This document shows, one piece after another, positions 58,498-62,970 of a stretch of DNA of 64,000 bases. The stretch covers positions 8,901,913 through 8,965,912 of the forward strand of contig NZ_KK073874.1 of assembly GCF_000585375.1 (NCBI RefSeq), read 5' to 3'. Within the stretch, counting starts at the first letter, position 1. Each line of letters begins with the position of its first letter. The position numbers and the translations under genes are program-made. Source of the DNA: Cryptosporangium arvum DSM 44712. Lineage in GTDB: Bacteria > Actinomycetota > Actinomycetes > Mycobacteriales > Cryptosporangiaceae. Below the pieces are notes generated by a model. The model saw only the letters and a program-made list of their open reading frames with translations, made no database searches and was not told where the DNA came from.

Positions 58498-58589
58498 ACC
58501 AGCGACGACGGGTGGTGGAGGGCGGAGTTCATTCGGTTCGTGACGCGAACATTGATCGCATAAGTCACTGTCCACAGTGTTAGGAGTGA

Positions 58590-58628
58590 AACGTTCCAAC
58601 CGTTGGGCCACTGATCAAGCGGAACGTT
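58590..58628. promoter_or_regulatory. AACGTTCC/GGAACGTT inverted repeat
   Basis: AACGTTCC (58590-58597) and its complement GGAACGTT (58621-58628) flank 23 bp between the SMP-30 gene and the His-rich micro-gene. GGAAC is also the usual -35 core of ECF sigma factors. GAACGTT occurs upstream of the second micro-gene too (62691-62697). Confidence 0.45.
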
Positions 58629-58682: not shown

Positions 58683-58805
58683 ATGAGCCACCACCGCGAC
58701 GACCACGGCCACTGGGACCACCACGACGACCACGGCAAGCACCGTCGGCGTCGGCGCCATCACCGCAAGCACCGCGACGAGAACTGGGGCTGGGGCCACA
58801 GCTGA
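58683..58805 (+). CDS. His-rich micro-protein, 40 residues
   Basis: ATG 58683 follows AGGAGG and encodes MSHHRDDHGHWDHHDDHGKH, then a basic core RRRRRHHRKHR and the tail DENWGWGHS. Twelve of 40 residues are His. The first 20 residues contain two copies of HHxDDHGxH ten residues apart, a likely Zn, Ni or Cu binding pattern. A strong hairpin (58819-58850) follows. The core resembles that of the 42-residue protein at 62790. Metal buffering or a modified-peptide precursor are possible roles; neither is shown. Confidence 0.75.
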   Translation: MSHHRDDHGHWDHHDDHGKHRRRRRHHRKHRDENWGWGHS

Positions 58806-58818
58806 GCGGTTAGCCGGA

Positions 58819-58850
58819 CCGGCCCGGGGCGCGATCGCGCTCCGGGCCGG
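58819..58850. terminator. Hairpin terminator after micro-gene
   Basis: CCGGCCCGGGGCGC and its complement form a 14-bp stem (one G-T) around GATC, 13 bp after the micro-gene stop. It also follows the converging kinase gene. The T-tract is weak (TCGTTT). Confidence 0.75.
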
Positions 58851-62629: not shown

Positions 62630-62789
62630 AGTGCGAACAACCTAGTACTGACCGGGGAGCGGTCGTACACGGCCCTCTGTGTTCGCAACCGAACGTTTCG
62701 GGGGTTGCCCGGCCGATCGAGCGGGGTGGCTGTTCGCGCGAAGCTAGTGGCACAGCAGGAACACACAAACTTCTTGGAGGCTGGACGAC

Positions 62790-62918
62790 ATGAGCGGCTG
62801 CTACGACTACGACTACAACCAGTGCAACGACTGGGACTACAACGAGTGCAAGCCGCGTCGTCGTCGCCACCACAAGAAGCGGTACAACGACTGCTGGGAC
62901 TACAACCCCTGCAGCTGA
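62790..62918 (+). CDS. Cys/Tyr/Asp-rich micro-protein, 42 residues
   Basis: ATG 62790 follows TTGGAGG and encodes MSGCYDYDYNQCNDWDYNEC, then KPRRRRHHKKR and YNDCWDYNPCS. Cys is at 4, 12, 20, 35 and 41; the first three mark an eight-residue repeat C-x-D-[YW]-D-Y-N-x. Six Tyr, two Trp and six Asp make it strongly aromatic and acidic around a basic core. An 18-bp perfect hairpin follows the stop. It shares the RRRRxHHxK core with the His-rich protein at 58683. Precursor peptide, metal-binding or coat-like roles are open. Confidence 0.75.
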   Translation: MSGCYDYDYNQCNDWDYNECKPRRRRHHKKRYNDCWDYNPCS

Positions 62919-62927
62919 ACCACCGAA

Positions 62928-62970
62928 CAGGGAGGCCCGGAGCGCACACCCCGCGCTCCGGGCCTCCCTG
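62928..62970. terminator. Bidirectional terminator hairpin
   Basis: CAGGGAGGCCCGGAGCGC pairs perfectly over 18 bp with its complement around a seven-base loop. It starts 10 bp after the micro-gene stop and ends 8 bp before the stop of the converging SDR gene. Confidence 0.88.

Follow-up and report, generated by a model that had tools for sequence, protein, structure and literature searches.

A multicopy gene family of autonomous micro-protein cassettes, confined to one genus

Whether a frame of only 42 codons, in which Cys, Tyr and Asp recur in an ordered way, belongs to a functional gene, and what its peptide might do, is the question raised by positions 62790–62918 (+ strand) of the 64,000-nucleotide stretch of Cryptosporangium arvum DSM 44712 analysed here (the window). 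The ORF starts with ATG and encodes MSGCYDYDYNQCNDWDYNECKPRRRRHHKKRYNDCWDYNPCS, which contains 8 aromatic, 7 acidic, 8 Arg/Lys and 2 His residues and has a pI of 7.6. The preliminary description of this DNA had put forward octad repeats with five evenly placed Cys. Two complete octads (CYDYDYNQ and CNDWDYNE) and a degenerate third were present, but among the Cys at residues 4, 12, 20, 35 and 41 only the first three followed the octad spacing, and Cys 35 and 41 belonged to another pattern. Neither a signal peptide nor a hydrophobic stretch was seen by inspection, and AlphaFold, run with 21 members of the family described below, predicted a disordered protein (pLDDT 53).

The 42-aa protein has 17 copies in the single-contig genome of 9,195,993 bases, the window copy included, and eight of them encode an identical protein. 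Six further copies lie within 14 kb to the right of the window copy and ten are dispersed. A related His-rich gene brings the genome total to 18, and seven of the 42-aa family copies are located together with it approximately 0.22 Mb from dnaA. The three other species of the genus (G001, G002 and G003, with G000 denoting the genome that holds the window) gave 21, 10 and 11 matches, copy numbers that are uncertain in the draft assemblies, which are apparently broken by the repeats. Contig ends coincide with family units at C11, C21, C31 and C32 of G002 and at C47, C60 and C75 of G001. From the four species, 50 complete genes were recovered, counting the His-rich one, and the members total more than 50. 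The units lie alone or in small groups, with unrelated genes around them; on contig C8 of G003 (L081:6827–9445), an array of 21 tRNA genes is flanked by two units, the ORF of the second starting approximately 280 nt past the last tRNA gene (Cys).

When genomes of the order (399), the class (395) and the phylum (396) were searched with family profiles, family-level scores came from this genus only; the best matches elsewhere were fragments with E-values no better than 0.006. The A2 alignment, run against 84,980 species genomes, revealed no relative. Pfam, NCBIfam, PHROG and PADLOC gave no credible match to the family, Rfam gave none above the gathering score and the PDB none at E 10, and no report of such a family was found in the literature. 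The gene family is thus multicopy and was found in one genus only. The preliminary description had envisaged an undescribed family in which the basic centre is fixed and the repeats vary, which called for further members in the same genome and a third member in relatives; both exist, and the constant core and the variable Tyr/Asp/Asn/Cys modules recur throughout the four species.

The 50 complete units showed what is kept. The constant features are a Cys ahead of the core, the core (K/R)PRRRRHHKKR and then (N/D)xCWDY. The pre-core Cys was found in 46 of the 50 units, His in the core in 47 and the CysTrp tail in 48, and all three elements were retained together in 45. The Cys pair around the core was spaced as C-x14-C in 30/50 units, and spacings of 13–17 were seen wherever else the pair was retained. 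The length of the octads is free to vary between copies and the number of Tyr/Asp/Asn modules differs among members; the proteins range from 38 to 46 residues and carry 0–5 Cys, many of them 2–4.

Each unit is approximately 290 nt long, with abrupt borders on both sides in alignments of the copies, and is an autonomous cassette of a common promoter module, a Shine–Dalgarno sequence, 38–46 codons and a hairpin. In full, the order is the promoter module, approximately 17 nt, GAnnCT, a CA-rich leader, GGAGG, the ORF and a GC hairpin that lacks a U-run. For the window copy, the upstream module GTGT-N7-CGAACGTT-N6-GT-N8-CGATCGAGC lies at 62679–62722 (+) with 0 mismatches. When up to 3 mismatches were allowed, it matched the genome at 20 sites, 17 of which were at the 17 family genes, and the backward control gave 0 matches. 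It was found in none of 57 genomes of other genera, and the exact pattern had no match in genome-contig and viral-contig collections, a result that bears on other genera only. From spacing and conservation we infer that TCGAGC (62717–62722, +) is a −35 element, as indicated by its conservation, free of gaps, across 49 units from the 4 species, and that GAAGCT (62740–62745, +), of the GAnnnT type with A2 and T6 nearly invariant, is the −10 element after a 17-nt spacer; a sigma-70 consensus scan of this site called no promoter. The Shine–Dalgarno sequence GGAGG (62776–62780, +) is located 9 nt 5′ of the ATG, and GGAGGCTGGACGAC-ATG is kept in most copies. No structure was indicated for the leader (z +1.2). 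Downstream of the stop codon, a terminator-like hairpin (62928–62970, +) has an 18-bp stem, a 7-nt loop and no U-run, with a folding energy of −44.6 kcal/mol (z −8.7). A similar CGAACGTTCCGGGCGTTC motif was also observed upstream of other genes at G000:8155051 (L212:1051) and G001:C2:69310 (L210), conserved in two species, which may hint at a wider regulon.

The coding part of the cassette is by far the most uniform. Of the 129 coding positions, just 3 differ among the eight identical-protein copies, in each case synonymously at a third codon position. Pairwise, these copies differ on average by 1.2% within the CDS, by 18.7% within the promoter and leader and by 37% over the 60 nt that follow the stop, with outer flanks that are unrelated and unalignable. 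It was on the Cys/Tyr/Asp pattern itself that the preliminary description had rested its claim that chance could not be the cause, and the 17 copies and the purely synonymous differences bear this out. These comparisons show that the encoded peptide is under strong constraint while individual copies turn over; part of the uniformity could also stem from gene conversion confined to the CDS. Codon usage points to strong translational selection, a sign of high expression. C is the last base in 98.8–100% of the family's two-fold codons for Tyr, Asp, Asn, Cys and His, compared with 82–96% in window genes and 96–100% in the ribosomal operon, and Arg is encoded by CGT/CGC in 89%, 49% and 62% (ribosomal-protein operon) of cases, respectively; the copies being related, these counts are not independent. 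The richness in CGT is not a plain copy of ribosomal genes, since CGT makes up 16% there and 39% in the family; the direction agrees, and the family is more extreme.

The His-rich gene (58683–58805, +) lies 4,107 nt upstream of the 42-codon ORF and is present in a single copy, encoding the 40-aa protein MSHHRDDHGHWDHHDDHGKHRRRRRHHRKHRDENWGWGHS. A kinship of the two genes had been suggested by a common basic core and Trp-rich ends. The product has an RRRRRHH core and a tail Trp, and has neither Cys nor Tyr. Its matches to family members of other species were weak (single E-values of 0.08–0.3), although in G002 and G003 its top matches were mostly family members, and the family protein profile missed it in the genome searches. 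Members with HEHH-type N-termini in G002 and G003 are intermediate in appearance. At the promoter, the common module was found at 58577–58620 (+) with 4 mismatches. A promoter profile of 79 columns, built from 46 units with that of the His-rich gene excluded, scored +50.2 bits at 58577; apart from the promoter of the 42-codon ORF, the next site in the 64-kb window scored −25.7. Recovery of the excluded promoter 76 bits clear of that site supports the two-member family first proposed. A hairpin with a 14-bp stem follows the gene (58819–58850, +). The His-rich ORF thus carries the promoter, the Arg/His core and the tail Trp of the family and lacks the Cys pair; its kinship is weak by protein and strong by promoter, and the earlier suggestion is upheld to that extent.

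How the copies come and go could be followed in the four genomes. In a tree, the copies cluster by species (7 label changes versus 25.7 after shuffling), indicating that amplification or homogenisation is ongoing within species. Flanks clearly common between species were found for only two locus pairs, both between G002 and G003 (approximately 1.4 kb of flank compared), and synteny across the whole window is scrambled within the genus. Remnants that retain promoter and hairpin and have no ORF were located at G000 3165484, G001 C1:467560, G002 C1:976296 and G003 C78:18818 (L057, L203, L205 and L211). At the G002 site (L205), the orthologous G003 locus retains the ORF, and this loss together with the several remnants indicates that single copies are dispensable. 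At G000:2967400 (L062:1500, − strand), the family promoter, leader and ribosome site are fused to an unrelated membrane-protein frame, which is a captured promoter. L007 has DNA resembling an IS5-type transposase next to its unit, and repeated DNA related to it adjoins units in L046 and L063; considered as a mechanism, such IS-like DNA was present beside a few copies and did not recur. A look for modifying enzymes close by had been suggested, and no gene recurred among the 71 nearest neighbours of the copies, the commonest, an SDR gene, appearing 3 times. A PH-domain-like gene that seemed to recur beside G000 and G001 copies was dropped, as the matches were other unit copies within the flanks.

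From these features a role can be proposed. Many genes with extreme codon bias would allow one peptide to be made in quantity when needed, and one regulator or promoter class would recognise GTGT-N7-CGAACGTT...CGATCGAGC. The peptide would be a disordered, roughly neutral ampholyte. Its Arg/His/Lys core would be the working part, with a polyanion, most probably nucleic acid, as its ligand. On either side of the core, the Tyr/Trp/Asp/Asn flanks would hold the molecules together through Arg–Tyr and charge interactions, and a condensate or coat would result. With the central His pair and one Cys on each side of the core, oxidation or a metal ion would be able to fix the core as a loop. The repeat modules may be free to vary because they are spacers rather than a fold. 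An abundant peptide with a polyanion-binding core, self-associating flanks and a Cys-based redox or metal switch is a possible, tentatively held reading that draws on composition. Metal binding would be just as plausible for a small disordered peptide of Cys, His, Asp and Tyr.

Metal buffering or sensing is the main rival, and we regard it as rather doubtful. The ligands would be Cys, His, Asp and Tyr; the centre, C-x(5-8)-HH-x(6-7)-C, resembles a Cys2His2 site, and the His-rich paralogue swaps His for Cys under the same promoter; the retention of Cys, the His-containing core and CysTrp in 45/50 units agrees with this. However, no CxC or CxxC was seen by inspection, the Cys number falls to 2–4 in many members and to 0 in the His-rich one, Arg and Lys equal the ligands in number, and no metal transporter or regulator gene recurs beside the copies. 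The peptides might instead be substrates of a distant modifying enzyme (RiPP-like or cross-linked), which would recognise the constant core and tail and modify the Tyr/Trp/Asp/Cys modules. A constant part joined to variable modules does resemble precursor families, and in marine cyanobacteria one distant enzyme serves many precursors, the prochlorosins. This seems distinctly unlikely here: the 71 nearest neighbours contain no recurring enzyme, protease or transporter, a CAAX-type protease adjoins a single copy only, NCBIfam and Pfam offer no family match, and eight copies encode an identical peptide, the opposite of diversified precursors.

The dispersal with sharp 290-nt borders, the species-wise clustering, the ORF-less remnants and the promoter half fused to another gene would also suit a selfish or neutral repeat that is of no benefit to the host and in which gene conversion preserves the ORF. 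But constraint is far tighter on the coding part than on the promoter, neither terminal inverted repeats (by inspection) nor an element-encoded enzyme was seen, and an ORF of 42 aa is too small for a transposase, so we hold this to be improbable. Judged as MITE- or REP-type elements, the units are sharp at 290 nt, show no terminal inverted repeats on inspection and have IS5-like DNA beside some copies. Finally, the compactness of the units from promoter to terminator might suggest a multicopy sRNA in which the ORF is incidental or secondary; the synonymous-only differences among identical-protein copies, the unstructured leader (z +1.2) and the lack of an Rfam match above the gathering score make this scarcely credible.

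Multicopy sets of small-protein genes are a known pattern, exemplified by the SASP. The alpha/beta-type SASP of Bacillus and Clostridium would be alike if the proposed mechanism is right, with several small, near-identical dispersed genes for one abundant DNA-coating protein. Pfam, the SASP signature included, matched none of 21 members at E 1, however, and the present proteins are shorter, rich in Cys, Tyr and Arg, predicted to be disordered and from a different phylum. Bacterial metallothioneins such as SmtA and MymT are likewise small Cys/His peptides that have no signal sequence, whereas this family shows no CxC on inspection and has few Cys, a strongly basic core and one Cys-free member. 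Multicopy RiPP precursors such as the prochlorosins share the constant part, the variable modules and the dispersed genes, but no associated enzyme was found near the family's copies, which are identical rather than diversified. Disordered proteins that form condensates through Arg/Tyr stickers share Arg-rich and Tyr-rich blocks, acidic spacers and predicted disorder, a likeness of composition only. As far as tested, a genus-wide set of autonomous 42-codon cassettes of such composition has not previously been described.

Taken as a whole, the proposal that genus-specific, disordered Arg/Tyr/Cys micro-proteins are mass-produced from one dedicated promoter class and form a nucleoprotein condensate or coat switched by redox state or metal, with whole cassettes continually copied and lost, is unlikely to hold in every part; if true, these would be bacterial architectural peptides of a kind not described before. 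The family is a clear case of the lineage-restricted micro-proteins that standard annotation tends to miss, being short, low in complexity and multicopy, and its copy number, coding constraint and common promoter make it testable. The cassettes also provide a natural system for the spread, uniformity and decay of a very small gene, in which the ORF-less remnants and the captured promoter represent intermediate stages.
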